Origin: Candidatus Saccharimonadota bacterium
GTDB lineage: Bacteria; Patescibacteriota; Saccharimonadia; Saccharimonadales; Saccharimonadaceae
Length of the DNA: 40,834 bases
NCBI GenBank assembly: GCA_027493025.1
Contig: JAPUDQ010000037.1
Span: forward strand, 1 to 40,834
Direction of reading: 5' to 3'
Shown here: positions 1,672 to 20,242 of the stretch, one piece after another
Numbering within the stretch: the stretch's first letter is position 1
Layout of the letters: every line of letters starts with the position of its first letter
The notes under the pieces: generated by a model
Database searches by the model: none
What the model saw: only the letters and a program-made list of their open reading frames with translations
Told to the model about the DNA's origin: nothing
Program-made: the position numbers and the translations under genes

Positions 1672-2076
1672 TTATTGACCCGAGGCTAGGTTAGAAGTGA
1701 CGAAGCTTACCGCCGCATAGGCAAGAAAGGCAACGACTATACCAACGATAGCATAAAGAATCGTATTCTTTGCAGCCGTTACCGCCGCTTGATCACCGCC
1801 GGAAACGACATATCGAATACCGCCAATAATAAGCATGATGACGGAAATTGCACCGATAAGAAAGAGCAAGATGTTCGTTACAGTACGAAAAATACCCGTA
1901 TCCCCAAACAAATCAGATGCAACCTTGTTACCTTTTGCACTATCGGCACCTGATTGGATATCGAGATTATTCGCTGCCTGCGCATAGACGATATCGCCGC
2001 TGAGTGCACTGACGCCTAGCGCCACCATTGGAACCATCATTAGTCCAACCATCGCTTTCTTGATAAAACTCTTCAT
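1672..2076 (-). CDS. Small pilin-like membrane protein (T4SS pilin / VirB2-TrbC-like), copy 1
   Basis: A 134-residue protein with an N-terminal signal peptide (hydrophobic core about 8-28, AxA-type end near VYAQA) and two transmembrane helices near the C-terminus. The helices are joined by a short loop with the repeated family motif IIGGIRYVVSGGDQ followed by AKNTILYAIVGIVVAFLAYA. This fold matches the T4SS pilin-like family found widely in Patescibacteria, related in design to VirB2/TrbC pilins that are cleaved and polymerise into a pilus or surface fibre. A clear AAAGGAG precedes the ATG. It is the last gene of a six-gene set and is set off from copy 2 by 69 bases, so it may be expressed at its own level. 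Confidence 0.82.
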   Translation of the reverse strand: MKSFIKKAMVGLMMVPMVALGVSALSGDIVYAQAANNLDIQSGADSAKGNKVASDLFGDTGIFRTVTNILLFLIGAISVIMLIIGGIRYVVSGGDQAAVTAAKNTILYAIVGIVVAFLAYAAVSFVTSNLASGQ

Positions 2077-2145
2077 AATTCTCCTTTATTTATTGTGTTA
2101 GAGCTTGTTTTATTTATAGCAGATAATACGTTATCCGTGAAGCTT

Positions 2146-2544
2146 TTACAGCCTGGAAATAACAAAGTTAACGATTGCATAGGCCATAAAGGCAACAATG
2201 ATACCGACAACTGAGTAGAGGATCGTATCTTTGGCGCTTTTTACAGAACCCTGATCGCCATTTGACGTCGTATACTTAATACCGCCAATTACAATCATGA
2301 TAACCGCTACTGCACCAATAATGAATAAAAGAATGTTTACAACATTCCGAATAAGGCCCGGAAGGTCGGTGTTTGTACCTGTCGGCTGTGTGCAGGAGTT
2401 ATTGGACCATGTGCCACCTGAGCCCTTACATATCTCTTCTTTTGGGTTTTGAGCACTAACCGTAGGTGATATAACTGGGACAATAGCAAATGCTAAGGAT
2501 AGTACCACCCCTGCTGATAATAATTTTAGCCTCCATCGTAACAT
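2146..2544 (-). CDS. Small pilin-like membrane protein, copy 2
   Basis: A 132-residue paralogue of the neighbouring pilin-like proteins: signal peptide (cleavage likely near VSAQN), a short exported segment with a cysteine pair (ICKGSG...NNSCTQ), then two helices around the conserved motif VIGGIKYTTSNGDQ and AKDTILYSVVGIIVAF. The ATG at 2544 is preceded by AAAGGAG at good spacing; the upstream in-frame ATG at 2604 would overlap the preceding gene by 50 bases and breaks the signal peptide pattern. The predicted role is a pilus or fibre subunit of the adjoining T4SS-like machine. Confidence 0.82.
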   Translation of the reverse strand: MLRWRLKLLSAGVVLSLAFAIVPVISPTVSAQNPKEEICKGSGGTWSNNSCTQPTGTNTDLPGLIRNVVNILLFIIGAVAVIMIVIGGIKYTTSNGDQGSVKSAKDTILYSVVGIIVAFMAYAIVNFVISRL

Positions 2545-2554
2545 ATCTACTCCT

Positions 2555-2959
2555 TTATATCCGTGATAACACAAAATTAACGATTGCATAGGCCGAAACG
2601 GCAATAACGACGCCCACTATAGAGTAAAGAATGGTGTCCTTAGCACCTTTTATAGCGTTTTGATCACCGTTAGCTAGGGTATATTTCAGACCGCCAATTA
2701 CAATCATCACAACGGCAACAGCGCCGACGACATATATCATCGTATTGACAATATTCGTCCATGGACTTCCCGGACCGAATAACTTTGTCCCTTTGTCTTT
2801 ACATATCTGGCTACTGGAGTTATCGCCTTCACATGCCGTATCAAGCGGGTTAATAACTGCGCTTGCACCTGTTGATGCAACCAGTCCTACGCATACCATC
2901 GCAAACAGCATAAATAGTACATGTCTCACAAAAGAGGGGACCGTAACAAGTTTTGACAT
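2555..2959 (-). CDS. Small pilin-like membrane protein, copy 3
   Basis: A 134-residue pilin-like protein with a signal peptide (about 1-33, ending ASA), an exported segment with two cysteines (ACEGD and ICKDK), and the two-helix core VIGGLKYTLANGDQ then AKDTILYSIVGVVIAVSAYA. It is the closest relative of copy 2 by eye, sharing NGDQ-x-AK(D)TILYS. Its start codon overlaps the stop of the preceding gene by one base (TAATG), and AGGAGG lies upstream. A disulphide in the exported loop is possible. Confidence 0.82.
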   Translation of the reverse strand: MSKLVTVPSFVRHVLFMLFAMVCVGLVASTGASAVINPLDTACEGDNSSSQICKDKGTKLFGPGSPWTNIVNTMIYVVGAVAVVMIVIGGLKYTLANGDQNAIKGAKDTILYSIVGVVIAVSAYAIVNFVLSRI

Positions 2960-3267
2960 TATCGAGTACCTCCTACTGAATTTACAATGAAGTTTATAAA
3001 CACAAAAACAAGCGTTGAGGCAGCAAGCGCAACGACCGCATAGATGATCGTTTCGCGCGCCTGTTTGTTAGAGCTTGGATCACTTCCGCTTGTCACATAG
3101 AGCAAAGCACCACGGACAATAAAGAATACACAGACCGCACCAAGCGCAACATACACAAGTCCAATAATATTATTGAGAACAGCCCCGTTCGCCGAAACTG
3201 TTGGCAGCTTTATCTCATCTGGCGTTATTTTAATTTGGGCAAAGTAATCAAACAGACTCCGTATCAT
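2959..3267 (-). CDS. Small pilin-like membrane protein, copy 4 (no obvious signal peptide)
   Basis: The shortest member, at 102 residues. Unlike its neighbours it lacks a classical cleavable signal: it begins MIRSLFDYFAQIKITPDE and moves straight to a first helix (about 33-55), the loop motif LLYVTSGSDPSSNKQARETI and a second helix (about 72-95). The loop keeps the family pattern of small residues and Asp before a basic residue and T-I. It overlaps the genes on both sides (ATGA upstream, TAATG downstream), so it is translationally coupled. It may be an inner-membrane partner rather than a polymerised subunit, which is inference. Confidence 0.75.
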   Translation of the reverse strand: MIRSLFDYFAQIKITPDEIKLPTVSANGAVLNNIIGLVYVALGAVCVFFIVRGALLYVTSGSDPSSNKQARETIIYAVVALAASTLVFVFINFIVNSVGGTR

Positions 3268-3689
3268 GAAAAGGCTCCAGCAATGAAGTTTACAATAGCA
3301 ACTGATACCATGGCAATAATAAGCCCAATCGTCGCATCTCGGACTCCGCTTATAGCCGTGCCTATTTTTCCGGAATCGCCACGAGCAATCGCCATCTTAA
3401 AAAGCATAAAGAATATATAGCCCGCGGCCACAAAAACCCCGATTTTTACAAGCGAGTCAAGAACAGGGAAGGCAATTTTGTACAAATCCGTAAGTTTTTC
3501 TAAGCGAGGTTCCCCCGTATCTGCCCCGGGCAAACAAGCGTACCACGGCTGTATACCAAACAGGTTCTTAGCCGATAATCCACAGCTTCCTCCTCCGCCC
3601 TGCGTAGAAGCAGCAAATGCAGGCTGTACTGATAGCACGGCTAGTGTTATCAGTACCAATATACCTATAAAAATCCTTTTGGCCATCAC
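3264..3689 (-). CDS. Pilin-like membrane protein, divergent copy 5
   Basis: A 141-residue protein with a signal peptide (about 1-27, ending AFA), a glycine-rich exported segment with two cysteines (GGGGSCGLSA and WYACLPG), and two helices with a linking loop MAIARGDSGKIGTAISGVRD. The IxxGxSGKI loop is the counterpart of the GGDQ loop in the other copies but clearly diverged. The start is GTG at 3689, immediately followed by ATG, with AGGAGG 9 bases before the GTG; the GTG overlaps the upstream stop as GTGA. It is part of the same coupled array, presumably a specialised or minor pilin. Confidence 0.72.
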   Translation of the reverse strand: MMAKRIFIGILVLITLAVLSVQPAFAASTQGGGGSCGLSAKNLFGIQPWYACLPGADTGEPRLEKLTDLYKIAFPVLDSLVKIGVFVAAGYIFFMLFKMAIARGDSGKIGTAISGVRDATIGLIIAMVSVAIVNFIAGAFS

Positions 3690-4249
3690 CCAAACGTTCC
3701 TCCTGGAACCAAAAAATTAATAATCGCAAACATCAGGAAGTAAATTATAAGTGCAAGTACGGAGTTAGCAATAATCTTGATGCCACTTTGCGTTTTACTA
3801 GGATTTCCTTCGGACGTACTATAAACAATTCCACCGGCGATGATGCCCCCAACAACAGCTATGCCGACACCTATACTAAGAAATTTTAACACTTCGATCA
3901 TGAGACAACGTATGCCGACATCATCTTTACCACACCCCGCAAACGCAAAGGCAGTTTTTGGCGTACAGTTATAGGGGTCATTGGTATCCGTACACTTCAC
4001 TGAGGTTGGCTTTGAATCGTCTTTCATGGTCGTTTCAATCTTTTGAAATTCACCCAGCTTTGCGGTCTCGCAGGCTTTTTTATACTCATCGATAGAACCA
4101 AGCTTCACTTGAATCGTACCGTCTTTACAGACAACCTCTGCTTTTGACGTCGCGTCCATATCGGCACCAGAAACTTGAGAGCTAAGACCTGCCATGCATA
4201 AGAGCGAAAGGACTGTAAGAGTGATGTAGTGTTTCTGTTTCATATTCAT
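3686..4249 (-). CDS. Pilin-like secreted membrane protein with large exported domain, copy 6
   Basis: The first gene of the minus-strand array and the longest, at 187 residues. A signal peptide (about 1-28) leads into an exported region of roughly 95 residues with six cysteines (VCKDG, ACETA, KCTDT, YNCTP, GCGKD, RCLMI). Two C-terminal helices follow around IAGGIVYSTSEGNPSKTQ. The extra domain suggests a tip or adhesive subunit, or a cap for the fibre, which is inference. No clear Shine-Dalgarno precedes either possible start (4249 or 4243). Transcription probably starts in the 165-base gap shared with the divergent T4SS operon. Confidence 0.72.
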   Translation of the reverse strand: MNMKQKHYITLTVLSLLCMAGLSSQVSGADMDATSKAEVVCKDGTIQVKLGSIDEYKKACETAKLGEFQKIETTMKDDSKPTSVKCTDTNDPYNCTPKTAFAFAGCGKDDVGIRCLMIEVLKFLSIGVGIAVVGGIIAGGIVYSTSEGNPSKTQSGIKIIANSVLALIIYFLMFAIINFLVPGGTFG

Positions 4250-4414
4250 TTACGCAGTTATATTGGTTATATTTACCCATACTCAGGCCAAGAAGTAAAG
4301 ACTAAGTCACGGTCTATCGTCATATAGTCTAAAATATATAGTATTCACGGAAGTAATAAAGGCTAGCCATTCATTCAAAAGTGATGTTTAATAGAGCATA
4401 GACACATAATCATT
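4250..4414. promoter_or_regulatory. Divergent promoter region between pilin array and T4SS operon
   Basis: An AT-rich 165-base gap from which both the pilin genes (-) and the T4SS genes (+) must be read. Several -10-like boxes are present (for example CATAAT 4405-4410 on +, and TATAAC-like boxes on - close to 4249), but none has a convincing -35 partner, so I do not assign exact promoters. The shared gap would allow joint control of pilus and secretion genes. Confidence 0.5.
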
Positions 4415-7400
4415 ATGAACACAGCTATACGAGTACTGGTTGGGCATAAGCTGAGGATGGCTCTTTACATACTAGGGGCTATATTATTTATTACTATTAC
4501 GACCGTCAATACCGCCTTTGCTCTATCCGATAGCGAACAGCAGTCATGCTATGACAAATATAACGGTAAAAACCTGAATCAGCAGCAATTTGATGAACAG
4601 GCATTTCAAAAGTGTTTGGACCGAAACGGAGGAAATTGTCAGGCATCTATAGGCGCAGACGATGGTGGAATGAACGCAAATATCACATGTATGAAGCCCG
4701 CTGCAAACAACGCTGGCAACAACGCAAATGATAAAGCACGTGGATACTTTAGTTCCTCAGTTATCACAGCAGCATGTAATGCTTCGCCAAGCAATGACTG
4801 TAAAAATAAGGTCGAGACAGCTTTCACTTCCTGTTTCAATATGTATATTCAAAATGGCCCAAATGGACAGGGATTTGACATGACCGCTCAAGCCTACGAT
4901 ACAAACTGGCTTTCAGACTGTGTTGTCAATAATGCTAAGACTGGAGACAAGACAGCCATTAAAGCTGCGCTTGATAAAACCATATCCGAACACAGTAGTG
5001 AACTTAAGAGCACAGCCACAGCTGACACTACTAACTTGCCCGAAAACACCGTTGAAACATGTCGGATCGACAACATCGGCTGGCTTGTCTGTCCGACTGC
5101 GGCATTTTTGAGTAAGATCACTGACGGGGCATATGCTCTTGTCGAGAAATTGCTTGTCTTTCGTGTTTCTGAAGATCCCCTGAGCACTGACCCGCAGGTT
5201 AACCCAGTATTCTTTATCTGGTCAAATATTCGTAATCTAGCAAACGTTTCGTTTGTCATCGCATTTTTTGTGGTCATATTTTCTCAGGCTACAAGTATTG
5301 GGCTTAGTAGCTATGGCGTTCGCAAGATGCTTCCACGCATTATCGTTGCCGCAATACTGGTTAACCTGTCTTACTACATCTGTATATTTGCGGTCGACAT
5401 ATCCAACATCATAGGAGCTGGGATCGATGGAATCATCCGTAATGTGCCATTTGCCAATGACAGCCTCGGCAAGTCATTACCGCTCGAAGGCGATGGTAAA
5501 TGGGAGACGATAACTTCCGGTATATTGGCTGCCGTAGTAGGCGGTATTGCACTGGGAGCGCTGGCTAAGGTCGGTTTAGCGATCTTACTTCCTTTTATTT
5601 TATTTGCGTTCTTGGCGATCATCACCGCAATCGTCGTACTTGCTGCTCGCCATGCGCTCATCATCATCCTGATAATTCTTTCGCCACTTGCGTTTGTCGC
5701 CTATATTCTCCCAAACACCGAGGGCTTGTTTAGTAAATGGCGTAAAGCGTTCATTACTATGCTCATTATGTACCCGCTCATTGCGATCCTGTTCTCTGGG
5801 TCACGGGTTGCGGGACAGATCCTCATGATGATGTACGAGGGCAACGGTTTTATGAGCGTCCTGATGAGACTCTTTGGGCTCGGGGTTATGGCCTTTCCAC
5901 TCTTTGGTGTACCGTATATTGTCAAGCTCAGCGGTGGGCTTATTGGACGCATCGCCGGAGTTGTGAATGACCGTAGCCGAGGACTCATTGACCGCTCTCG
6001 AAACTTCGGCAAAGAACACGACAAGGTAAAACGTGCTGAATTTGGGCAAAATCTCCGAGATAATAAATGGGGTAAACGCGCCTCTAAATGGGGCTATGGA
6101 AAAAATGGCAGCGAGGATAAGGGCCTGGGTGGTAGGGCAAGAAGAAGATTTGGGCGAATGTTTGGTGCGACTGCAACAAAGGCATCTGGAGCAGCAAATT
6201 GGCAGTACGATCGTAAAAAGGAAAGAGAATCCCGGCTTGAGGAATCTAACCGTCAAGGCGAAGAACAATACTGGGATCGTTTAGACGGCAAAGTCAACAG
6301 AGAGGACTTTATGAAGAATGGTGTTTTAGATGAGCCTGCTTATAACGCAGCTGTAGCAGACGCCAAAAAGAAAGCGGACAAAATGGCCCTAAGAGCTGCC
6401 GGGGTTACGGGAGCAGAAGGCGCAGAACGTATTCGGAGGGTTGCTCGTGAGAAACAAAAGAAAGAATATTTAGCTGATATTGATCGTGCTTCATCGGACT
6501 TTGTTGCCAATGGTGCCTTTGAGGCTGGTGGGTATTACTACGAGTTCGATGATGAGGGTAACGTAGTTGCAGAACACGCCGACCATGGACGTGCGATGAC
6601 AGCTGCTGCAGTAGGTAAAAATCGTGTTGGTGTTGTGCGTGCCGGACAAGAGCGAACGATAGAAAACGCCCAGAAAAATATGATCGACACACGGGGATGG
6701 CGTCAAGACCGGACAAAGTCAATTAAAGTGCAGGCGATTATGAAACACCTCAACGATATTGGCGATGGAGCGGGTATTGGGTATGCGCTTTATGGAGACA
6801 AAAGCCAGGGCATTGAAGCTCTTGCTGATGATCAAGTATCTGACTTCTTAAGTTGGGTCAATGCAGGAAAAATCGCACCGAAACTATCACACCTCGTCAC
6901 TAATGATAACGGTCTCAATGGTGTTAGTGCTGAGGCGATGGTTAATTGGCATGGCAATGAATTTGCCGCAGCAGCTTCTCGCGTCAGGCAATTACGTGAA
7001 CAAGGAAAGTACGGACAAGCTCAAAAAATCCAAGATGCTGTTGAAAACGCCTTTAGCACCCTCAGCACAGACCCTAACCTCCGCAAAGACTTCAAACAAA
7101 AACATGTTGATGCTATGGCTCGCTTTAATCGCATCGTTAGCGGCAATGAAGGCAGAATTGCGCTTCGTGAATATGGCGATTCATTGCGTGATGCTGACGG
7201 TAGATATACTCAAGGTGTTATCACGGATGAGGGCGATCCAAATGTTGGCAAAATCTTACATCCAGAAGGCGGAAAAGTTAATGCAGGTGGAGAGAGCGCC
7301 TCCCTACGTTTCTCTAATGTAACGAAAGACACTAAGATAGAAGATATTCTTGCAGGGGCTACTGAACAATCTAACAATACGTCGCAAACCAACCCCTATG

Positions 7401-7612
7401 CAAATCCAGCCTATGGAACCGGTACAGCAAACGACCCTCTACGACAGCAAGCCCAAACACAGCAGCCTCCAATCCCCACTCCAGATGCTGGCACTCTAAA
7501 TATTCCCCATGGCGGTAGTGGAGGTAATGAACCTGGAACGCCTTACACACCCGCCGGAATGTCCCCCGAACAGTCCGAGGAGTATCATAGGCGCTTTGGT
7601 GGCGGTAGCTAA
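4415..7612 (+). CDS. Giant polytopic T4SS membrane protein (VirB6/TrbL-like)
   Basis: A 1065-residue protein in three parts. A signal peptide (about 1-37, ending AFA) leads to an exported cysteine-rich region (about 38-260, with repeated Cys at SCYDKY, KCLDR, NCQAS, TCMKP, ACNAS and DCKNK). A hydrophobic core of about six to seven helices (roughly 267-512) includes LPRIIVAAILVNLSYYIC and IIILIILSPLAFVAYILP. A long charged cytoplasmic tail (about 513-1065) is rich in Arg/Glu early and Gly/Pro/Gln late. The core resembles TrbL/VirB6 channel proteins of T4SS. The family is far smaller (about 300-400 residues); the exported head and the tail are extras. No strong ribosome site precedes the ATG. 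Its stop overlaps the PrgI-like gene by one base (TAATG). The order channel, PrgI, TraC-like, VirB4 supports the assignment. Confidence 0.72.
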   Translation: MNTAIRVLVGHKLRMALYILGAILFITITTVNTAFALSDSEQQSCYDKYNGKNLNQQQFDEQAFQKCLDRNGGNCQASIGADDGGMNANITCMKPAANNAGNNANDKARGYFSSSVITAACNASPSNDCKNKVETAFTSCFNMYIQNGPNGQGFDMTAQAYDTNWLSDCVVNNAKTGDKTAIKAALDKTISEHSSELKSTATADTTNLPENTVETCRIDNIGWLVCPTAAFLSKITDGAYALVEKLLVFRVSEDPLSTDPQVNPVFFIWSNIRNLANVSFVIAFFVVIFSQATSIGLSSYGVRKMLPRIIVAAILVNLSYYICIFAVDISNIIGAGIDGIIRNVPFANDSLGKSLPLEGDGKWETITSGILAAVVGGIALGALAKVGLAILLPFILFAFLAIITAIVVLAARHALIIILIILSPLAFVAYILPNTEGLFSKWRKAFITMLIMYPLIAILFSGSRVAGQILMMMYEGNGFMSVLMRLFGLGVMAFPLFGVPYIVKLSGGLIGRIAGVVNDRSRGLIDRSRNFGKEHDKVKRAEFGQNLRDNKWGKRASKWGYGKNGSEDKGLGGRARRRFGRMFGATATKASGAANWQYDRKKERESRLEESNRQGEEQYWDRLDGKVNREDFMKNGVLDEPAYNAAVADAKKKADKMALRAAGVTGAEGAERIRRVAREKQKKEYLADIDRASSDFVANGAFEAGGYYYEFDDEGNVVAEHADHGRAMTAAAVGKNRVGVVRAGQERTIENAQKNMIDTRGWRQDRTKSIKVQAIMKHLNDIGDGAGIGYALYGDKSQGIEALADDQVSDFLSWVNAGKIAPKLSHLVTNDNGLNGVSAEAMVNWHGNEFAAAASRVRQLREQGKYGQAQKIQDAVENAFSTLSTDPNLRKDFKQKHVDAMARFNRIVSGNEGRIALREYGDSLRDADGRYTQGVITDEGDPNVGKILHPEGGKVNAGGESASLRFSNVTKDTKIEDILAGATEQSNNTSQTNPYANPAYGTGTANDPLRQQAQTQQPPIPTPDAGTLNIPHGGSGGNEPGTPYTPAGMSPEQSEEYHRRFGGGS

Positions 7613-8586
7613 TGGCAGTCTACAAAGTTCCTCAAGATGTTGAAGCTGACGACAAGCTGATTGGGCCGTTTAGCTTTCGGCAGTTTATTTATCTGATTGT
7701 CGTCGCGATCGGTATTGCGCTTGCGTGGTTTTTGGGAAAGATCTTTATTGGCCTGATCCTTATCCCGCTACCATTTATATTGTTCTTTGGCGCACTAGCG
7801 CTACCACTTCGCAAAGATCAGCCGATGGAGATATACCTTGTGGCGGTTGTTCAGTTTTACTTTAAGCCTCGGCTTAGACTATGGCAGCCAGAAGGCCAGG
7901 TGAACCTTGTTACAATAACCGTACCCCATACTGAGGAAACTTCGCTCACCAAGAATTTTACAAGTGACGAGGCTCAGGCACGCTTGGCCTATCTTTCTGA
8001 TGTCATTGACACCCAAGGTTGGGCAGCGCGAGGAGTGAATGTCTCAGACACGGCCATGGCCAGCCTCAATGATAACGTGACAGCTGAAGCCAGTACGATT
8101 GATGATATGCTTGACGATACGATCGGAATTGGTCGTCAGTTCAATAGTCTCATCGAAGAGCAAGACGAGATTCGCAAACAGCAAATAACCCAAAATTTCC
8201 AGACTGCCATGAGTCAACCGCAACAGGCTTCTAGCACCGCCGCCTTACCCCCTCAATATCAGCCATTTGAATCTACCTCTACAGGATCAAACCCGCTTCC
8301 GCCACCACCGCCTGGAGCGCCAGCTGATATTTCTTCGTATCAAATGTCTGCAACAACACCGCATTCAGCAGCGTCATACGTACGCGCCCCGCAACCGCTG
8401 ACAGAGCAAGCACAAACACAGGTCACTGTACCGGTTGCAAATACTTCGAGAAATGCTAGCGATTTACCCCCTTCGCCTGATATAATGAACTTGGCAAACA
8501 ACCATAATTTATCAATTAGCGGTATCGCCAACGAAGCGCGGCGTCTTCAAGAAGATAATGCCGAAGTGGTGATAAAACTACACTAG
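7612..8586 (+). CDS. PrgI family T4SS membrane protein with long C-terminal tail
   Basis: The first 110 residues match PrgI-type proteins: the start AVYKVPQDVEADDKLIGPFS, then two adjacent helices (about 25-45 and 47-66) and the basic turn after PLRKDQPME. PrgI proteins are small inner-membrane parts of Gram-positive conjugation systems, roughly in the VirB3 position, always next to VirB4. This copy is 324 residues, about three times the usual length; the extra 210 residues are a low-complexity Gln/Pro/Ser tail including PPPPPGAP, probably unfolded and cytoplasmic. It is translationally coupled to the gene before and lies 24 bases before the TraC-like gene. Confidence 0.82.
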   Translation: MAVYKVPQDVEADDKLIGPFSFRQFIYLIVVAIGIALAWFLGKIFIGLILIPLPFILFFGALALPLRKDQPMEIYLVAVVQFYFKPRLRLWQPEGQVNLVTITVPHTEETSLTKNFTSDEAQARLAYLSDVIDTQGWAARGVNVSDTAMASLNDNVTAEASTIDDMLDDTIGIGRQFNSLIEEQDEIRKQQITQNFQTAMSQPQQASSTAALPPQYQPFESTSTGSNPLPPPPPGAPADISSYQMSATTPHSAASYVRAPQPLTEQAQTQVTVPVANTSRNASDLPPSPDIMNLANNHNLSISGIANEARRLQEDNAEVVIKLH

Positions 8587-8610
8587 GTTGTGAGAACGAA
8601 AAGGGTAGGT

Positions 8611-9423: not shown

Positions 9424-11309
9424 TGGGATTGTTCGGCGGCAAGAAAACTGATGTCATCGAGGTTGCCGAGGCACAACGCCAGCGAGAGCAACAAGAGATC
9501 GAACAGGAATTCCTGCGCGGTATCACAACCCTCCGCGACACAATCGCTCCCAGCAGTCTTGAGATACAGAGCGCTTATTTTCGACTTGGTACCCGATATG
9601 GCCGAACTCTCTATGTCTATGGCTATCCACGCCAAATATATACCGGCTGGCTAAGTTCAATCATCAATCTCGATGAAGTCATCGATGTCAGCATGTTTAT
9701 TTATCCCGTCGAAAGTCAAGTAGTCCTCAATAATCTGCGTAAAAAGGTTACACAACTTGAAGCAAGTATGTCGATCAATTCAGAACACGGTCGTGTTCGT
9801 GATCCTGCACTGGAAGCCGCGATCCAAGATGCAGAAGAACTGCGCGATCAGCTCCAGGTAGGTGCGGAACGGTTTTTCCGTTATGGTCTCTATATCACGC
9901 TCTATGGTGATAGTCTCGACGAGATTAATTTCATCCAGCATAAAGTAGAAACGATTCTCGGACAACAGCTTGTCATGAGCAAAGTTGCGAGTTCTCAGCA
10001 AGAACAAGGTCTCAACAGTACCGTGCCGCAAATGACCGATCAGCTACAAATTCGTCGCAACATGAACACAGGAGCAATTAGTACCAGTTTTCCATTTACC
10101 AGCGCTGATCTCACCCAAGAAAAAGGCGTATTATATGGTATCAATATGCACAACAACGGCCTCGTAATCTTTGACCGTTTCAGCCTTGAGAATGCCAATA
10201 TGGTGGTGTTTGCAAAGTCTGGCGCTGGTAAATCATTTACCGTCAAGCTTGAAGCACTGCGTACGATGATGATGGGGGCGGATGTTATCATTGTCGATCC
10301 AGAAAATGAATATCAGCGTCTGGCCGATGCAGTGGGGGGAAGCTATATCAGGCTTAGTCTCAACTCACAAACGCGTATCAACCCATTTGACCTACCGCGC
10401 GTCATCGACAGCGAGGATGCTGATGATGCATTACGAGCCAACCTCGTTACCCTCCATGGTCTACTTCGACTCATGCTCGGCGGCTCACAAATGGCTGCAA
10501 ACGGCGCCATCATGCCCGCACTGGCGCCCTCCGAAGAAGCCGATCTCGATCAAGCGCTTATCGATACCTACGCTCGTGTTGGCATTACGTCCGATCCTTT
10601 AACGCACAACTCCGTGCCACCAACCATTAATGATCTTTACGATACACTACTTCATATGGGTGGCAGTGGTCCGCAACTTGCTCAGCGTCTGCGCAAATTC
10701 ACTACCGGAACATTTGCAGGGATTTTCTCTCAGCAGAGCAATATTGATATCAATAATGCCATGGTCGTCTTTAACATCCGCGATCTTGAGGAGGAGCTTA
10801 GACCGGTTGCGATGTACATCGTACTGAGCCATATCTGGAATACGACGCGATCAGAGACCAAAAAACGTATGCTGATTGTTGATGAGGCCTGGCAGCTCAT
10901 GAAATACGATGACTCGGCAAACTTTCTGTTTAGTCTTGCCAAACGCGCCCGCAAATACTATTTGGGATTAACCACTGTTACCCAGGATGTCGAAGATTTT
11001 ATGAGCAGCAAAATGGGTCGGGCGATTGTGGCAAACTCCAGCATGCAGCTATTGCTCAAACAGTCATCTAGCGCCGTTGACGTCCTCAGCGATGTCTTTA
11101 AGCTGACAGAAGAAGAAAAAAAACGACTTGCCAACTTCCCGGTAGGACAGGGGCTGTTCTTTGCTGGCCAAAATCACGTCCATCTCCAGGTTATCGCGAG
11201 CCCAACTGAGCAAGGTCTCATTACGACAAACCCCCAGCAATCCCGCATGATGCAACAACCCCTACAAAATTACGCAGATCAACAACCCGACGGAGCAACA
11301 AATTATTAG
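9423..11309 (+). CDS. VirB4/TraC family T4SS ATPase
   Basis: A 628-residue motor that would power pilus assembly and substrate transfer at the inner membrane. The N-terminal 250 residues are the VirB4-type docking domain. The C-terminal RecA-like domain has Walker A AKSGAGKS (264-271; the usual first Gly is Ala) and Walker B RMLIVDEAW with D487/E488. The conserved GVLYGINMHNNGLVIFDRF precedes Walker A, and TQDVEDFM lies in the sensor region. No transmembrane helix is apparent. It ends in a Gln-rich tail. It starts within the stop of the TraC-like gene and is followed 9 bases later by the M15-containing membrane protein. It is the clearest marker that this operon is a T4SS. Confidence 0.93.
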   Translation: MGLFGGKKTDVIEVAEAQRQREQQEIEQEFLRGITTLRDTIAPSSLEIQSAYFRLGTRYGRTLYVYGYPRQIYTGWLSSIINLDEVIDVSMFIYPVESQVVLNNLRKKVTQLEASMSINSEHGRVRDPALEAAIQDAEELRDQLQVGAERFFRYGLYITLYGDSLDEINFIQHKVETILGQQLVMSKVASSQQEQGLNSTVPQMTDQLQIRRNMNTGAISTSFPFTSADLTQEKGVLYGINMHNNGLVIFDRFSLENANMVVFAKSGAGKSFTVKLEALRTMMMGADVIIVDPENEYQRLADAVGGSYIRLSLNSQTRINPFDLPRVIDSEDADDALRANLVTLHGLLRLMLGGSQMAANGAIMPALAPSEEADLDQALIDTYARVGITSDPLTHNSVPPTINDLYDTLLHMGGSGPQLAQRLRKFTTGTFAGIFSQQSNIDINNAMVVFNIRDLEEELRPVAMYIVLSHIWNTTRSETKKRMLIVDEAWQLMKYDDSANFLFSLAKRARKYYLGLTTVTQDVEDFMSSKMGRAIVANSSMQLLLKQSSSAVDVLSDVFKLTEEEKKRLANFPVGQGLFFAGQNHVHLQVIASPTEQGLITTNPQQSRMMQQPLQNYADQQPDGATNY

Positions 11310-11318
11310 TAGGCAACT

Positions 11319-14300
11319 ATGAGCACCAAGACTCAACAAGAGATTTATGACGCTGAACGTAACCCGAGTCAACCGGATAATATTCTAAATCCAGGACAAG
11401 ATGACTACGACCGTAAATTTAACGATATTACCCGTAGTCCTGATATGCAGGCACTCGACGATCAGGGTAATGCCGCCATCCGCGACCATGAACAACGAAA
11501 TCGGCCTGAAACTGCCGACGATAGTCGTCAGGCTGCCGCAGAAGGTGAGAGAAGAGTTGGGGATACCGCGGCAGGAAAAGCATTATCAACAGCCGCCGAT
11601 ATGAGCGGCAACACCGCCGCCAAAATTGCTGCGCGCGTTGCCTCTCAACTCAAAACTCGCAAAGGCGGTTTGGCAGGCCTAGTCGTTCTTATTGTAGCGG
11701 GCATACTTATCGCAGCCGGATTTCTTGCGCCAAGCCTTCTACTGGTCCACCTAAAAGAGGAGGGGCTTTCATGGACAACCAAATATACCAACCTCGGTAT
11801 GAACAACCGAATTCGCCTGACATATACCGCAAAAATCTTTGGTAATCCCGACAACTGCAAAGGCCCCAAAGCTCTTTGCCGTTTCTATCCTGGGATGAAA
11901 GATTCTGACATAGAAGCACTTCGCAAACAAGGATTTAAGATCGATGAGGGCGATATCGGTGGCAAGGGTAATAAAAAATTTGTCAAAAAAATGACCATGA
12001 GTGTGGATGGGAAGCCGGTTGTCGTGACCCAGAAAAATCTCGCAAAACTCCATGCCACAAATCCAAAAGTTCAGTCAGCTATGAACAATTACATACGCGG
12101 CCGTTCGATAACTCATCGCTCTCTTGGTGCACTCAAAAAGTTCTCAATATTTAATATCGATAGAGCAAAACCGCTTGGCGAGAAGTTCACCAAGAAAGGA
12201 ATGCTCACCTATTTTCGTGAGAAATTCTACGAAGGAAAACATAACCTCGCAAGTAAGTTAAAACCTGGTAGCGACGAAAACTCCGGCGATGCGCGCAAAA
12301 ATAATCTCGCAAAGCTCGCTGATATTGAGGCTGAAGCAGCAGCCGTACGGGGAACCAATATCGTTGAGAATGGACCGAAAGCTATCGTTCCTGATACCTC
12401 AGCCCTGAAGCTAGAAAACGCAGCTAAAATCGGAGCCGGCACCTTGTCGGGTGGATTAAAAGGCGTAGTAATGGGCTGGCTCAATACATTTGATACGGTA
12501 TGTTCGATATACAACACGATACGGATTGTCAATTTCGGAGTCAAAGCGCTCGCCGCAGCCCAACTCATAAAATATGCGGGTATGTTCACTACTATCGCAG
12601 ACAAACAAAAAGTCAGTTCGGCAGACATGGCAGAAATCGCCTTTCTCGCCTCTATACTCTTAGCGCCAAGCAGAATGGAAGCCTCGAAAGGCAAAGATTT
12701 CAGTCAGTCACAAGGCGCCAACCTCATGTTCTATGGCAAAATCACCAACCAAGATAGCCTGCATCGCTTCTCACTCGGATCAGCTGCCTCACAAGCAACG
12801 GATATCATCTTTTCTATTGCCAGTCTGAAGGGCCTGTCAGGAGAAGCCTGCTCGCGAATACTATCAAAATGGGGTCAAGCCGGTCTTTTTGTTGGCGGAA
12901 TCATTACATCGTTATTGACACTCGGTACTGGTGCCGTGAAAGGTGCTGCTGAGGGTGCCGTGAAGGGCTTCATTATTGGCACGATCTTGCAGATCTTGAC
13001 GCCACGACTCATACCGCTTATCGCGGGCACTCTCATCCCGGACCCAAGAACTGACCCGGAGGGGGGCTACGGAGCGGGGAACGCGATTGCCGCCGGTCTC
13101 GGAGCGTTTGGCGGCCAGCTCGGTCGCGCACAAGGCATGCGACCGCTCAAAAAGACTCAACACGCGCTGCTACGCAATAGCCAAGAGTACCGCGTTATGG
13201 CTCAAGCCGATGAGCTCGACAAACAATCGGGCGGCAGTTTCAATCTCGACAATCCTTATAGCATACCCAACAAAGTAGCACTCTCTCTCTATCAACTTGG
13301 GCAGCCAAAATCAAGCCTAAGCGAATATATAGCTAGCGTCGATACTACTATACGAAGTGCAATCACAAAACCGGTCACTCAGACTGCCTCGGCAAGTGTC
13401 GATGATGAATATGGCGGACAATATTGTGCCGATGATCAATTCGCCAGCGTAATGAAAGCAGGTCTTGAAGTTGACCTCGCCAAAGATGCTAACTGCAACA
13501 TCATATACGGACCCGATCCTGCAATTGTACTATCTCCAGATGATATTACCCGTGATGTCGAAACAGTCGACACTCAGCCAGGGGTGTCACGAGACGTAAA
13601 ATACGGCATTAATGACACGTTTTACTGGATGGCTGAGCATGGCTACATCAACCCAGAAACAGGTGATTCTCGCAAAGAATATACTGAATATAAAGAAACA
13701 TGCATGGAAGGAACCGACCCAATCCTTGACAAATGGTCGGCTGATCTTGGTGATGGTACTGATATGTCCAAATGTTATAAACTCGATGGTGATGGTAACG
13801 AAAAAGACAAATACCGCTACTTTAGCGCCTGGAGTATTCATGAAAGCATTCGCGAAAGCACGGAGGCAATTTCCGACAACAAGCTCGGCATAGCCGATGC
13901 GAGTAGCGCCGGTGGTGGCAACGTAACTATCGTTCCAGGTACACTACCGGCTGGCAGTGCTCAAGACATCGCCAAACAACTTCTTCAGTACACCGCTAAC
14001 GGTACAATATCTTGTAACCGTCAAGCCAGAAATTGTCCAGACATCACGAATACAGCCGAGGGTAAACCATTGGGTGGTAATTGTCCGGCTGGCATGACCT
14101 TGGATGCCCGCGTCCTAGGAACCATTCTTGTGCTGACTCAAAAAGGCTACAAGCTAACGCTCTCATCATTATGCTCAGATCACGATATCGACAATGGTGG
14201 ACATCCAAAAGGCAAGGCATTTGACATCAACTTTATCAACGGCGTATGGATTGGTAATGGGTCTGCTTCGGGCTACTGGGGTCCAAGCACTCAGTGGGGT

Positions 14301-14456
14301 CCATTGACCGAAAAAGTCACCCAGGAAATTGTTGCAGTTGGCGCCAAAAACAAAGTCGGTATCGGACAAATCCAGTGTCACCCTAAATGGTCATTCCTTG
14401 ACGGCGTAAACACCTTTGTTGATGACTGTCATCACATCCACGTGGAGTATCCATGA
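11319..14456 (+). CDS. T4SS-linked membrane protein with C-terminal M15-type peptidase domain
   Basis: A 1045-residue protein. A charged cytoplasmic lead (1-115) is followed by a strong helix (about 117-142), a long region with further hydrophobic Gly/Ala-rich stretches (for example GAVKGAAEGAVKGFIIG near 530-550, glycine-zipper-like) and a C-terminal domain of about 140 residues. That domain carries the zinc-peptidase pattern of M15 D-Ala-D-Ala or endopeptidases: H962-PKGKAF-D969, and HIH at 1039-1041 within DCHHIHVEY near the very end, so the three expected metal ligands are all present. The likely job is local cutting of peptidoglycan peptides where the machine spans the wall. It follows VirB4 closely and overlaps the next gene (ATGA). 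The middle 700 residues are unassigned. Confidence 0.72.
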   Translation: MSTKTQQEIYDAERNPSQPDNILNPGQDDYDRKFNDITRSPDMQALDDQGNAAIRDHEQRNRPETADDSRQAAAEGERRVGDTAAGKALSTAADMSGNTAAKIAARVASQLKTRKGGLAGLVVLIVAGILIAAGFLAPSLLLVHLKEEGLSWTTKYTNLGMNNRIRLTYTAKIFGNPDNCKGPKALCRFYPGMKDSDIEALRKQGFKIDEGDIGGKGNKKFVKKMTMSVDGKPVVVTQKNLAKLHATNPKVQSAMNNYIRGRSITHRSLGALKKFSIFNIDRAKPLGEKFTKKGMLTYFREKFYEGKHNLASKLKPGSDENSGDARKNNLAKLADIEAEAAAVRGTNIVENGPKAIVPDTSALKLENAAKIGAGTLSGGLKGVVMGWLNTFDTVCSIYNTIRIVNFGVKALAAAQLIKYAGMFTTIADKQKVSSADMAEIAFLASILLAPSRMEASKGKDFSQSQGANLMFYGKITNQDSLHRFSLGSAASQATDIIFSIASLKGLSGEACSRILSKWGQAGLFVGGIITSLLTLGTGAVKGAAEGAVKGFIIGTILQILTPRLIPLIAGTLIPDPRTDPEGGYGAGNAIAAGLGAFGGQLGRAQGMRPLKKTQHALLRNSQEYRVMAQADELDKQSGGSFNLDNPYSIPNKVALSLYQLGQPKSSLSEYIASVDTTIRSAITKPVTQTASASVDDEYGGQYCADDQFASVMKAGLEVDLAKDANCNIIYGPDPAIVLSPDDITRDVETVDTQPGVSRDVKYGINDTFYWMAEHGYINPETGDSRKEYTEYKETCMEGTDPILDKWSADLGDGTDMSKCYKLDGDGNEKDKYRYFSAWSIHESIRESTEAISDNKLGIADASSAGGGNVTIVPGTLPAGSAQDIAKQLLQYTANGTISCNRQARNCPDITNTAEGKPLGGNCPAGMTLDARVLGTILVLTQKGYKLTLSSLCSDHDIDNGGHPKGKAFDINFINGVWIGNGSASGYWGPSTQWGPLTEKVTQEIVAVGAKNKVGIGQIQCHPKWSFLDGVNTFVDDCHHIHVEYP

Positions 14457-14914
14457 GTCCTACCGTACAATCTGCTTTCAGAAAACTTCTATGGCCGTTG
14501 CTCGTACTGGGGGTTATCCTCATAATTTTCCTTATCTGGTTAGTTACAAACACCTCCAAAACCCCTCAGACACCGACATCCTCACCGCCAACTTTCGACG
14601 CCCAAAAAAACGATGCCTATAGCCCCAAAGAACGTACTGATAACGAATACATCGCCCTCATTAAAAAACAGTACTCCTATCTCAAAGACGAGCCACTAAC
14701 AATTGTCCAAAAAGAACTCGTCCAGCCGCATTGGTATATCATAACTACCTATGAAGGAAGTACAAAGATGCCATTCCGGTATATATTTTATGATGATTAT
14801 CCAAATAGTTCCGCCCTCGTACTGAGCGCCATCGGTTTAGAACACCCAGAATTACCGCAAGCTGATGCCATACCAGAAAATATATTAAAACAACTAGAGG
14901 TAAAAAGCCGATGA
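14453..14914 (+). CDS. Bitopic membrane protein of unknown function in T4SS operon
   Basis: A 153-residue protein with a single helix (about 12-33: LLWPLLVLGVILIIFLIWLV), a Thr/Pro/Ser linker and a soluble domain of about 95 residues, probably outside the membrane. I do not recognise the soluble domain; WYIITTYEGSTKMPFRYIFY suggests beta strands. Start and stop both overlap neighbours by four bases (ATGA on each side), so it is made in step with the two wall hydrolases. By position and topology it could be a VirB8-like assembly or adaptor protein, but size and sequence do not prove this. Confidence 0.6.
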   Translation: MSPTVQSAFRKLLWPLLVLGVILIIFLIWLVTNTSKTPQTPTSSPPTFDAQKNDAYSPKERTDNEYIALIKKQYSYLKDEPLTIVQKELVQPHWYIITTYEGSTKMPFRYIFYDDYPNSSALVLSAIGLEHPELPQADAIPENILKQLEVKSR

Positions 14915-16122
14915 GTAAAAAGCTATCTCAAGCCGGAACGTTATCTTTACTGTGTGGATTTATAGCTGCCGCTATCATTCAACCGTTTACACCCGCTATT
15001 GTAATGGCACAAAACCCCTCAATGTCATCTTACTTTACGAGCCAACAGATAGATACCTATGATCCATCTGGTACCACCAAATCAAACTGCGCTCCTGGTG
15101 ACCCAGGTGCGGGTGGTGACGTACCAAGTGGCGCCAGTAATGCAGAACGAGTTTTTAAGTTTCTCGTCGCACAAGGTCTCACCGCCAATCAAGCCGCTGG
15201 TGTCGTCGGAAACATGATGCAGGAGTCAGGCGGGGGCACGTTTAACCTTGATCCAGCTATTACAAACCCATCTTCTGGTGCATATGGTATCGTACAGTGG
15301 TACGCCGAACGTAAAACTGCTCTCATAAACTACGCCACAAGCGTGGGCAAACCAGTATACGACGTTGATATGCAGATAAATTTTCTCTGGAAAGAGCTGA
15401 CGACTTCATATAAAACGAGCGTGCTTGATCCTATTCGAGCCACAAAAGACTTACGAGAGCCAACCCTTATTTGGTTGGAACGATTTGAGATACCTTGTCT
15501 GCCGGGATCATGCGGAGGTGAGATGACTATTCGTATGCCAATGGCACAGAAGGCTTATGACGCATTCAGCGGCATGGCCCCGAGTACGGGTGTTGGTCCA
15601 GAGGGTTGCAGTAGTACTGGCGCTCAAGTTGATATCTCGGGCTATGCGTTTCCGGTAGGTATCCCAAAAGACCAACTCTTCAACTGGTGCAAGTGGCCGA
15701 TCCAAACATCTGCTCCATACTGCCATCATGATAATACGCCCGCTATTGATATCTCCATAAAGGGTAACCAGCAGAATGCGATTGGCAAGCCAGTTTATGC
15801 TATCTATAACGGCAAAATTGACCGGCTCAACCTGAACTACAATGGTTCGGGTTGTCAAGCTTTTCAACTAGTTGGCGACGATGGGTGGTGGTATTGGTAC
15901 GGCCATATTCGTAGCAGTGTCAAAGATGGACAGACTGTCAAAGCGGGCGAACAAGTAGGAACAATTGGCGAGAGTGTCTGCTCCGCACCCAGCACGAGCG
16001 CTCCGCCACATCTACATATTGACCGCGGATATCCAAAAGGACACTACGGTGGGGAAGTCGGTTTTCGCGATCCAGCCTTTTTGGAGCTTATCAACAAACT
16101 ATATGACGGCTTAAAGAACTAG
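14911..16122 (+). CDS. Secreted bifunctional wall hydrolase: phage-tail-lysozyme-like domain plus M23 peptidase
   Basis: 403 residues with a signal peptide (about 1-34, ending VMAQN). Domain 1 (about 75-225) resembles phage tail lysozyme domains: AERVFKFLVAQGLTANQAAG, then GNMMQESGGG with the likely catalytic Glu at 105, and AYGIVQWYAERK. Domain 2 (about 245-395) is an M23/LytM-type zinc endopeptidase: H272/H273 and D280 in CHHDNTPAID, WYWYGHI, VKAGEQVGTIG and the final H367-L-H369. Together they would cut both glycan strands and cross-bridges, like VirB1/PrgK-type T4SS hydrolases. The H-to-D spacing is longer than the usual HxxxD. It overlaps the gene before by four bases. Confidence 0.88.
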   Translation: MSKKLSQAGTLSLLCGFIAAAIIQPFTPAIVMAQNPSMSSYFTSQQIDTYDPSGTTKSNCAPGDPGAGGDVPSGASNAERVFKFLVAQGLTANQAAGVVGNMMQESGGGTFNLDPAITNPSSGAYGIVQWYAERKTALINYATSVGKPVYDVDMQINFLWKELTTSYKTSVLDPIRATKDLREPTLIWLERFEIPCLPGSCGGEMTIRMPMAQKAYDAFSGMAPSTGVGPEGCSSTGAQVDISGYAFPVGIPKDQLFNWCKWPIQTSAPYCHHDNTPAIDISIKGNQQNAIGKPVYAIYNGKIDRLNLNYNGSGCQAFQLVGDDGWWYWYGHIRSSVKDGQTVKAGEQVGTIGESVCSAPSTSAPPHLHIDRGYPKGHYGGEVGFRDPAFLELINKLYDGLKN

Positions 16123-16132
16123 GGAGTACACG

Positions 16133-16552
16133 ATGACAAATCAACACAGAATTTTACTCATCATAATCCTCGTCTGTCTAACAGCTACCGTTGGATTCTT
16201 ATCACTCGCCAAAAGATCCGAGGACAAAACCCAGCCTATTACAACCGTTCAAGACTATGGTACCGGGTCGCGTCCCCTTATTATTGTCTCAAACCCTAAA
16301 GAATTTCAGCAAAAAGTTGGTGGCGCCCGACAAGCCACCACACTCCTAAACCAAATTTACGCTGAAAACTATAAGCTAACGGGCAAACTCGACAAAGAAG
16401 CTCAGCTCGACGGTGACATTACCCAGAAAGGAAGTCAGACTGATTTTGTACTTAAACTTTCGCCAAGCAACACAAAGCTTTCGGTTACTGTCAAGATGAA
16501 GAACGCTTCGAGTAACAATTATGAGCTTGGTGTACGAAAGGTAGGGAACTAA
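16133..16552 (+). CDS. Small anchored or secreted protein of unknown function
   Basis: 139 residues with an N-terminal helix (about 7-26, LLIIILVCLTATVGFLSL) that may be a signal anchor, followed by an exported domain of about 110 residues. I recognise no family. The domain looks beta-rich and basic (DGDITQKGSQTDFVLKLSP). It sits 10 bases after the hydrolase gene and directly abuts the next gene (stop TAA then ATG), so it belongs to the T4SS operon. Confidence 0.55.
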   Translation: MTNQHRILLIIILVCLTATVGFLSLAKRSEDKTQPITTVQDYGTGSRPLIIVSNPKEFQQKVGGARQATTLLNQIYAENYKLTGKLDKEAQLDGDITQKGSQTDFVLKLSPSNTKLSVTVKMKNASSNNYELGVRKVGN

Positions 16553-17833
16553 ATGAACCGCATAAATAAGATTCTCTATGTTGTTCTTACGCTTTCATTA
16601 CTAGCTATGATAGCAAGTGGCGTCTATGCATTTACAACCCATCTTAAAACCGGCACAACGTCAACTACAAAGATACTCCGATACAATACCTACCAACCCA
16701 CTGGTAAAGACGGAGCAATACGGTATTATACGGGTAATACGTTTGTTTCATACTCCCCGAGCGATGGCTCTACAAAACCACTGACAACACATCGATACAT
16801 CCCCAATATCCAATCTCTTTACTGGCTTGATGGTGGAGTTGTCTTTAGTTTTGAGTCTTATGCTTCTCCCAATAATTTGCTCAAGTCTATCGCTGCAAGT
16901 CGCCCCAACATTCTTACTGAACAAAACAGTCAGGGTACGCCGTACTGGTATTTATCATTTACAGACAATTCTCTCAAGCCACTCGTCGTAGATCAACGTC
17001 CCGATAAACCATTTGCCGTGTATGGCAATGGCGGCTTACTGTTTCGTGAAACCGAAACAAGTTATTCAATCCTCAAATCCGATGGCGGTATTCAGCGCGA
17101 AGTTGTTAAAAATGTATCAAGTGAATTTAGACCTATCGGTTTTGACGATACGTCCTATTACTATCTCGAAAAGATCAATGAGCAGATAGCTGTCAAAAAG
17201 GGGACTCTCGGCTCAGCTAATACAATGCGCGTCACGAACGATCTCTATGCGTCACCAAACCATAGCTACCTTGAACCGGTGGCTATGAGCAATCAAACAA
17301 TATATTACACCAATCAAAATCAGTTAATAGCCTACAACACTTCCTCTGGCGAACGCATTGCACTAACCTCATTTGAAAACGGTCAGTTATATCAGGGAGG
17401 TGCTTCAGACATTACTGCGTATATAAACAATGGTTCAGTTATCTCTGCATACACTCTATCGAGTGGAAAAATAACCAGTCAACATACACTGCAAATCCCT
17501 TCATATATTAGTCCAGTGAGAGTACTTTTTGAAAATGGAATATTCTATGTGAATGGACTTCATGGCGAATTAGTTGCAGCTGGCACGAAACGCGAGATCA
17601 TAGAATCATTTCCTACAGCCTACCATGATCCATTAGAAAAAGCTGTCTCATCATCAGATTTTGCATTGCAACGATCTATAGAGTCAGGAAAAGATAATGA
17701 GTATATTGTAACTTTCATACAGGGCACTACTTCGCAACTACTCGATAAACTTTACGTGGTACTCCAGGCTAAAAATATTGATCCGTATCAATTTACTTTT
17801 ATACTTAACCCCGGTCCTCGTGTTAAAGAGTAA
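16553..17833 (+). CDS. Membrane-anchored, beta-rich protein of unknown function
   Basis: A 426-residue protein with an N-terminal helix (about 8-28) and a large exported domain. The domain has recurring short strand patterns (IRYYTGNTFVSYSPSDG, YWYLSFTDNSLKPLVVD, AVYGNGGLLFRETE, IYYTNQNQLIAYNTSSGERIA) of the kind seen in beta-propellers, though I cannot assign repeats exactly. It is the last gene of the T4SS operon. Its 3' end overlaps the 3' end of recF by 11 bases in convergent orientation, leaving no room for a terminator between them. It may be a surface or periplasm-like scaffold for the machine (inference). Confidence 0.6.
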   Translation: MNRINKILYVVLTLSLLAMIASGVYAFTTHLKTGTTSTTKILRYNTYQPTGKDGAIRYYTGNTFVSYSPSDGSTKPLTTHRYIPNIQSLYWLDGGVVFSFESYASPNNLLKSIAASRPNILTEQNSQGTPYWYLSFTDNSLKPLVVDQRPDKPFAVYGNGGLLFRETETSYSILKSDGGIQREVVKNVSSEFRPIGFDDTSYYYLEKINEQIAVKKGTLGSANTMRVTNDLYASPNHSYLEPVAMSNQTIYYTNQNQLIAYNTSSGERIALTSFENGQLYQGGASDITAYINNGSVISAYTLSSGKITSQHTLQIPSYISPVRVLFENGIFYVNGLHGELVAAGTKREIIESFPTAYHDPLEKAVSSSDFALQRSIESGKDNEYIVTFIQGTTSQLLDKLYVVLQAKNIDPYQFTFILNPGPRVKE

Positions 17834-19964: not shown

Positions 19965-20242
19965 TGAGTTTCCTTTCTTATTATTTATATATAGTAGTCA
20001 TAGTAGTAGGTAGTGTGGAAAGTGGGGGAAAGGAGTGTTTTATAGGGGGTCGAAGGCCGTTTTTGGCTGTGTATAAGACTGTGGATTTTATACAGGTACA
20101 AAAGAGGAAAGAGTTGAAGTTTTCCCCTAGGAGAGTGAATAGCGAGGAGTTTTCCATAGAATCCTTTTGGAGCTGTGGATGATGATACACATAGTTATAC
20201 ACCCACCTCTGCACGGGTTGTACACATTTTATACTCAATCTT
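19965..20242. other. Probable chromosomal replication origin (oriC) between dnaA and dnaN
   Basis: A 278-base gap rich in DnaA-box-like 9-mers. On + they read TGTGGAAAG 20014-20022, TGTGTATAA 20068-20076, TGTGGATTT 20080-20088, TGTGGATGA 20174-20182, TGATACACA 20183-20191, TTATACACC 20195-20203 and TTGTACACA 20218-20226. The form TTATACACA (and its complement) recurs in the dnaA upstream region. An A/T-rich stretch lies at the dnaN end (about 19972-19993). Position between dnaA and dnaN, box clustering and an adjacent unwinding-type sequence support oriC. No other gene is credible here. Confidence 0.8.
19972..20028 (+). promoter_or_regulatory. Predicted origin unwinding element with DnaA-trio-like TAG repeats
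   Basis: Reading left to right there is an A/T-rich tract (about 19972-19993), then TAG triplets at 19992, 19995, 20001, 20004, 20007 and 20011 (with one TCA interruption and one extra G). A DnaA-box-like TGTGGAAAG (20014-20022) and a G-run (to 20028) follow. This matches the order and polarity of the DnaA-trio basal unwinding module described in Bacillus subtilis, where DnaA spreads from a box along 3'-GAT-5' repeats into the unwinding site. Confidence 0.6.

Follow-up and report, generated by a model that had tools for sequence, protein, structure and literature searches.

The closest described relatives of the gene cluster studied here are the type IV secretion systems (T4SSs) of Patescibacteria, including those of the Saccharibacteria such as TM7x. 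In Candidatus Southlakia epibionticum, the genes SEML1_0006-0019, pilins included, are essential for epibiotic growth by transposon sequencing (Tn-seq), and the cluster is without a recognisable coupling protein or relaxase (Wang et al., 2023, Cell, PMC10633639). A survey of 2,425 such VirB4 proteins reported TrsD and PrgI, 2-11 genes per pilin array, genes for a peptidase and a lysozyme that lie behind virB4 and are essential, an unlinked type IV coupling protein, rare relaxases and a dnaA neighbourhood (Quinonero-Coronel et al., 2025, Microb Genom, PMC12102498). The role of the T4SS in Saccharibacteria has been called completely unknown (PMC11665869). We analysed a stretch of 40,834 nucleotides (hereafter the window; JAPUDQ010000037.1 of GCA_027493025.1), which is one entire contig of the 910-kb, 98% complete genome of a Candidatus Saccharimonadota bacterium, and examined this genome by family searches. 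At positions 1672-17833 the window carries the same system. It shares VirB4, TrsD, PrgI, an array of six pilins, a peptidase and a lysozyme behind virB4, the lack of a linked relaxase or coupling protein, and a place near dnaA, which has been described in several classes (PMC10633639, PMC12102498); it also has a candidate for the VirB6-type channel. The machine itself, including what an earlier reading made without database searches (the sequence-only reading) had put forward as a compact T4SS-like machine with a divergent pilin array and two built-in wall hydrolases, is already known. What appears to be new in the open-access literature searched is an exchangeable hydrolase cassette; an exchangeable hydrolase scaffold and its lateral replacement are undescribed in the two T4SS studies (PMC10633639, PMC12102498).

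The first slot of the cassette is occupied by a protein of 1045 amino acids (aa) on the plus strand (11319..14456), a predicted membrane scaffold with a C-terminal LAS/M15-type zinc domain. Pfam finds no domain in it. The earlier assignment as an M15 fusion was correct despite this silence: in an alignment with 13 relatives (14 sequences), residues H962, G965, D969, H1039 and H1041 of the C-terminal domain are invariant, the zinc site follows the H-x6-D and H-x-H pattern of LAS/M15 metallopeptidases, and a profile of the domain matches mainly hedgehog and L-alanyl-D-glutamate peptidase in the PDB, i.e. the LAS/M15 zinc fold. Hydropathy indicates one transmembrane (TM) segment near residues 118-136 and a hairpin near 522-569. 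Together with basic residues before the first TM segment and near-invariant cysteines (C395, C511, C795 and C819), this suggests an N-in, C-out topology with an outward-facing enzyme.

The genes between virB4 and recF were then extracted from about 70 loci of relatives. Of 58 loci, 55 have a scaffold of about 1000 aa that is homologous throughout, with 13-30% identity typical across the family. Its C-terminal enzyme is not conserved. About nine unrelated domain types alternate there, the last 230 aa having been clustered by single linkage after trimming of a conserved linker: LAS/M15 in 14 loci, M23 in 13, VanY in 9, M74-like and NlpC/P60-like in 2 each, and Amidase_2, M14 and GDSL in single loci. 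Four tails (L057, L058, L126 and L131) carry one to three DNase-I-fold (Exo_endo_phos) domains each, placed in three of the four before an M23 domain; these domains could possibly act as a nuclease or phosphodiesterase facing the host. The arrangement resembles that of polymorphic toxins, in which a conserved N-terminal carrier is joined to unrelated, laterally exchanged C-terminal enzymes. It differs in that the scaffold bears mostly wall hydrolases and is set in the membrane as part of an essential machine; immunity genes were not seen, and none were looked for. In one genus (g2; L067, L098-L110), the module behind virB4 is rearranged and scaffold homologues lie on other contigs.

The second slot shows the same kind of variation. 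In the window it is filled by a secreted or anchored protein of 403 aa (14911..16122, plus strand) with a tail-lysozyme domain (Phage_lysozyme2, PF18013, 4.8e-31) followed by Peptidase_M23 (PF01551, 3.6e-12), as the sequence-only reading had proposed. The phage phi29 protein gp13 degrades a Gram-positive wall during DNA entry. This tail-tip enzyme (PDB 3csq/3csr) combines the same kind of N-terminal lysozyme (3.7e-7 against 3csr, catalytic Glu aligned) with an M23-type domain; unlike it, the enzyme of the window is a bacterial T4SS gene product with an N-terminal anchor, and its second domain is interchangeable among relatives. In slot 2, Phage_lysozyme2 occurs in 15 of 27 cases, paired with M23, C39 or CHAP, and other members carry GDSL, Amidase_2 or GH3. 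The combination of SLT and CHAP that makes up VirB1 of monoderm T4SSs was not found in the window, and SLT or CHAP occurs in a few relatives.

Three single-TM proteins, all encoded on the plus strand, complete the cassette. The first (153 aa, 14453..14914, TM 13-31) lies between the two hydrolase genes and remotely resembles, by a weak profile match, a family of small proteins from other loci (alignment A5). The second (139 aa, 16133..16552, TM 7-25) has no Pfam match and belongs to no recognisable family. The third (426 aa, 16553..17833, TM 7-25) fills the terminal slot and is an orphan, its only match in 295 genomes of the family being itself. A joint alignment of all small proteins (A3) was too heterogeneous and was not used.

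Pairs of close relatives were compared for signs of exchange. Genomes G007 and G091, which correspond by sequence identity to UBA6040 and RYN_407 in the named set, are 100% identical in DnaA, 99% in DnaN, 97% in RecF, 98% in VirB4 and 92% in TrsD at the amino acid level, and their pilins are 71-97% identical. In contrast, the scaffold (35%), the lysozyme protein (33%), the last gene product (21%) and the channel (40%) diverge. At the DNA level the two remain homologous as far as base 10431, about 100 bases inside the scaffold gene; a stretch of 4.4 kb without homology follows, and the match sets in again at recF. G007 and G124 (RYN_426) differ at slot 1 only; across slots 2-3, which hold the lysozyme and last genes, their DNA agrees at about 83%, so that the locus is a mosaic. 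The scaffold of G007 is 44-48% identical over nearly its full length to scaffolds of other genera, as against 32-41% to those of its own genus mates. Among relatives at 95-98% VirB4 identity, nearly every pair has scaffolds of just 28-40% identity. Public records with independent names gave 13 pairs, none of them identical, in which VirB4 is 95-98% and the scaffold without exception only 30-40% identical. Finally, on a VirB4 tree of 56 labelled loci, the scaffold domain type changes at least 26 times (29-39 in shuffles), also inside genera. Elsewhere on the contigs of G007 and G091, islands at 67-76 kb and 82-86 kb of G007 (L231-L235) are without DNA homology amid stretches that are otherwise about 87% identical.

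Conserved flanks, a replaced interior and a phylogenetic mismatch, as found in these relatives, look like lateral exchange of a surface-hydrolase cassette. The alternative, which we consider unlikely, is that lateral exchange plays no part and that diversifying selection drives an extremely rapid evolution of the cassette genes in place. The homology of the scaffold in all compared strains and its low identity across the family would agree with this. The mosaic with sharp borders at gene ends, the best scaffold matches in other genera and the replacement of catalytic domains by unrelated folds speak against it. The locus is not alone in varying, but here homologues replace one another at a single position within a core operon. 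The cassette of the window, with a scaffold that reaches no more than 33% identity, over most of its length, with any of 294 other family genomes and with an orphan last gene, fits the same exchange behaviour, without proving it.

Several observations weigh against the view of the cassette as an exchanged set of outward-acting enzymes. Variability is not unique to the locus, as the same contigs hold further variable islands. Scaffold residues besides the catalytic ones diverge too, so that very fast evolution in place contributes to some degree. The compared genomes are mostly metagenome-assembled genomes (MAGs). About 12 scaffolds have no recognisable C-terminal domain, and in some relatives the scaffold lacks an enzyme altogether. 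The AlphaFold2 model of the 1045-aa scaffold is weak (predicted template modelling score, pTM, 0.60) and has no PDB similarity, and any relation to VirB6, VirB8 or PrgK would be conjectural. The activity of the M23 domain in the window is unsure: of the H-x3-D and H-x-H zinc site of M23 endopeptidases, H367-x-H369 is present, but a threonine (T276) stands at the canonical first zinc-ligand position, with a histidine (H273) three residues before it.

Even with these reservations, the distribution of the enzymes bears on what they act upon. VirB1-type hydrolases are normal parts of T4SSs, and monoderm versions have two domains (PMC12102498). The hydrolases might be assembly factors of this type that open the thin wall of the epibiont itself, in which case the variety of domains would be neutral and many wall enzymes would do. 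The position of the hydrolase genes directly behind virB4 and the predominance of peptidoglycan hydrolases among the alternative domains agree with this. However, the enzymes differ between strains whose core proteins are 97-100% identical, the same position can hold a DNase-I-fold or a GDSL esterase domain, and the enzyme has been lost from some scaffolds. Service of the own wall only should not need different enzymes in near-identical strains, and the exchange thus favours a target that changes, for which the host envelope is the simplest candidate. We rank an exclusive role in the own wall second among the functions considered, and still regard it as unlikely. The DNase-I-fold and GDSL domains at the enzyme position would fit an attack on more than peptidoglycan. 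That the system suits an epibiont breaching a host wall had been a guess in the sequence-only reading; we infer that such breaching has become more likely because near-identical strains, presumably with the same own wall, carry different hydrolases.

If exposed T4SS parts served as receptors, exchange could reflect diversifying selection for escape from phages or other surface attack, as at phage-receptor loci. The exposed parts (channel, scaffold, lysozyme protein and terminal proteins) do vary while the cytoplasmic ATPases do not, and the terminal protein of the window is an orphan. On the other hand, catalytic domains are exchanged and not surface loops alone, and the pilins, which are the most exposed, are still conserved in the G007/G091 pair that swapped everything else downstream. 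We consider this explanation improbable.

We favour host-contact secretion with interchangeable envelope hydrolases, in which exchange would track host change, and assign this reading a probability of about 0.58. It builds on the observed gene content and location, the conservation, the swapped domains and the breakpoints; the topology, the activity of the enzymes, the wall they act on, the substrate and the direction of transport are inferred. The cluster is taken as a chromosomal T4SS of the Patescibacteria type that is passed on vertically and sits at the replication origin. VirB4, its split-off part TrsD and PrgI would power and anchor a polytopic membrane channel, and the VirB2-like pilins would form a pilus or line the channel. 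The membrane scaffold would hold its C-terminal enzyme outside the cell, the tail-lysozyme protein would contribute a second enzyme, and one or two single-TM surface proteins would end the cassette. Relatives would replace the scaffold or the entire cassette by lateral exchange between the virB4 and recF flanks, with unrelated wall and envelope hydrolases alternating at one position. These enzymes would loosen the host envelope, and probably the own wall too, at the contact site, and the machine would then transport a substrate, for which effector proteins or nucleic acid are the likeliest candidates.

In another reading, the machine imports DNA and so supplies the epibiont with nucleotides, in a Com- or Ced-like use of a T4SS. 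Such a role has been proposed for Saccharibacteria (PMC11665869), and the DNase-I-fold domains on the scaffolds of some relatives would be in line with it. However, ComEC is separately present in the genome of the window, VirB4 matches CedB only generically, and the window gives no sign of the direction of transport. Import ranks third, behind host-contact secretion and own-wall assembly, and is decidedly unlikely.

The machine behind the cassette is the standard one of its class, and not the unusual device for which it had been taken. A core VirB4 was matched in 110 of 117 genomes of the class, and in 103 of 108 when high-quality genomes are counted. Judged by VirB4, the nearest named relatives are for the most part MAGs with the title Candidatus Saccharibacteria. 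All but a few of 30 loci sampled across the class show the gene order [hsp20] - pilin array - channel - PrgI - TrsD - VirB4 - scaffold - hydrolase - [small proteins] - recF - dnaN - dnaA. The cluster is a core chromosomal system of the class. Two genomes (G102 and G122, one of them a single contig) have only a VirB4 of about 39% identity and no core VirB4, due either to loss of the core T4SS or to an assembly gap.

The cluster adjoins recF-dnaN-dnaA, an adjacency that the sequence-only reading overlooked. recF (17823..18857, minus strand; Pfam SMC_N) overlaps the last cassette gene by 11 bases and forms the conserved right border of the cassette, at which homology resumes in relatives; dnaN and dnaA follow in the origin region (18873..21658, minus strand). 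Neither an element boundary nor an integrase was seen, and the flanks comFC, hsp20 and recF-dnaN-dnaA are also found in relatives (30 loci), so that the comparison of gene order across relatives revealed a conserved order and origin location without the borders of an integrative element.

These results bear on whether the cluster is an ordinary conjugative or integrative element, which the sequence-only reading had doubted. The parts of the MPF-FATA (mating-pair formation) type, namely VirB4, PrgI and TrsD, would allow this, as would a VirD4-family ATPase elsewhere in the genome. As had been stated, no relaxase or VirD4 was found among the window genes scanned, a few small open reading frames (ORFs) at 22-36 kb being unscanned. 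In the wider search, a PF03432 relaxase was detected neither in the genome of the window nor, over the cut-off, in any of the 117 class genomes (other MOB classes were not searched), whereas ComEC and VirD4 did turn up. The VirD4-family ATPase lies on another contig, unlinked to the cluster, with TrwB_AAD_bind, T4SS-DNA_transf and TraG-D_C all over the cut-off, and an unlinked homologue is present in all 117 class genomes. The hint that the system lacks VirD4 is thus not borne out. Without a PF03432 relaxase, with VirD4 unlinked and with a fixed place beside recF-dnaN-dnaA across the class, the conjugative element was rejected as most improbable, in agreement with published work that likewise concludes against ordinary conjugation (PMC10633639, PMC12102498). 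Compared with the MPF-FATA machines of monoderms (pGO1, pCF10, ICESa), with which it shares the class of VirB4 and PrgI/TrsD, the system of the window has pilins, an unlinked VirD4, no relaxase found and no recognised VirB8, and the SLT and CHAP VirB1 is replaced by the scaffold-M15 and lysozyme-M23 proteins. In this genome the VirD4-family ATPase lies beside genes of cell wall and division, which at L055:6960-9836 (G000:C39) read as ftsQ, murG, ftsW, mraY and ftsI homologues. The ATPase may possibly have been recruited to cell-wall or division work.

Some Saccharimonadia carry a second T4SS (L087-L096, e.g. L088:5355-13125), which looks more mobile. It shares TrsD, a pilin and a related VirB4 (38-40% identity) with the system of the window. 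It differs in having one pilin and a pilin-VirB6 fusion, a small CHAP hydrolase and a VirD4 directly downstream, and it is sporadic and located away from the origin. From its gene content, this second system is a better candidate for a mobile element than the core cluster. At L088:1063-3772, a reverse transcriptase gene neighbours that of a protein which combines an N-methylation motif with an FGE-sulfatase (C-type-lectin-like) domain. The pair has the look of a diversity-generating retroelement whose target is a pilin-like protein.

The overall layout given by the sequence-only reading was confirmed: all 15 ORFs were found, with the coordinates and directions given, in two arms that face outward from a gap of exactly 165 bases (4250..4414). 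Both promoters are presumed to lie in this gap, although its promoter scan was no richer than shuffled sequence; promoter and terminator scans gave nothing beyond shuffles. The minus arm consists of the six VirB2-like pilins. PF18895 (T4SS_pilin) matches all six, four over the gathering cut-off and two under it (21.8 and 20.8 bits versus 26.6), and their pairwise identity over the aligned core is 20-62%. Farthest from the gap is a pilin of 134 aa (1672..2076, 3.4e-9), which takes the same array end in most relatives. It is followed by a protein of 152 aa in the longest frame (2146..2604, 7.3e-14; TrbC/VirB2 4.1e-7), whose true start may be internal as it overlaps its neighbour of 134 aa (2555..2959, 2.9e-11). 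Next are a pilin of 102 aa with two TM segments (2959..3267, 5.8e-9) and the two pilin-like proteins under the cut-off, of 141 aa (3264..3689, 2.1e-4) and, adjoining the gap, of 187 aa (3686..4249, 4.1e-4).

The plus arm runs from the channel candidate through PrgI/VirB3, TrsD and VirB4 to the scaffold and the rest of the cassette. The channel candidate (1065 aa, 4415..7612) has about seven TM segments between residues 8 and 497 followed by a long hydrophilic tail. It has no significant Pfam or NCBIfam match, and its tentative assignment as VirB6 follows from the TM count and the conserved position; homologues occur in every core locus, in some in two copies. The PrgI/VirB3-like protein (324 aa, two TM segments, 7612..8586) matches PF12666 (4.7e-12, 46.7 bits versus a cut-off of 27), as expected from the earlier reading. 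The next protein (277 aa, 8590..9423) had been called TraC-like. The name is corrected to TrsD, the N-terminal piece of a split VirB4: it matches NF041427 (9.3e-8, yet far under the curated cut-off), and the VirB4 profile NF045975, which covers profile positions 232-279 in this protein, continues at 278 in the next gene, from which we conclude that the two together form a split VirB4. VirB4 itself (628 aa, 9423..11309), recognised already from the sequence, matches NF045971 (368.7 bits versus a cut-off of 325) and has a Walker A motif GAGKS at residue 267; PADLOC gave merely a generic ATPase match to it. A Pfam search for VirB8 gave no match in the cluster. A small single-TM family of other loci was tried for this role and is not claimed as VirB8: its model is confident (predicted local distance difference test, pLDDT, 92.5; pTM 0.75), but its best fold matches are transthyretin-like beta-sandwiches, with TcpC at rank 14 (E 0.06), and the 153-aa protein of the window is tied to this family by weak similarity only.

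Further genes of the window lie beside the origin. Positions 23964-33005 and 36183-38285 hold a surface-glycan operon (Wzm/Wzt-type ABC transporter, WsaF-type glycosyltransferase) and a lysylphosphatidylglycerol-synthase-like membrane protein. Between them, at 33002-35200, is a protein of 732 aa with a secretion-signal-like N-terminus, conspicuously long for so small a genome and without any Pfam match.

The cassette may bear on how epibionts choose their hosts. The scaffold keeps its place while the enzyme changes, even in near-identical strains, which points to the component by which the machine meets a target that varies. The type of cassette may set which host wall an epibiont can breach, and host range may move by recombination at the virB4-recF interval; we put this forward tentatively, at somewhat less than even odds. 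The wall enzymes would form a natural collection of hydrolases, perhaps tuned to the envelopes of Actinobacteria, and swapping its hydrolases could be the means by which such a tiny bacterium adjusts to one host cell or another.

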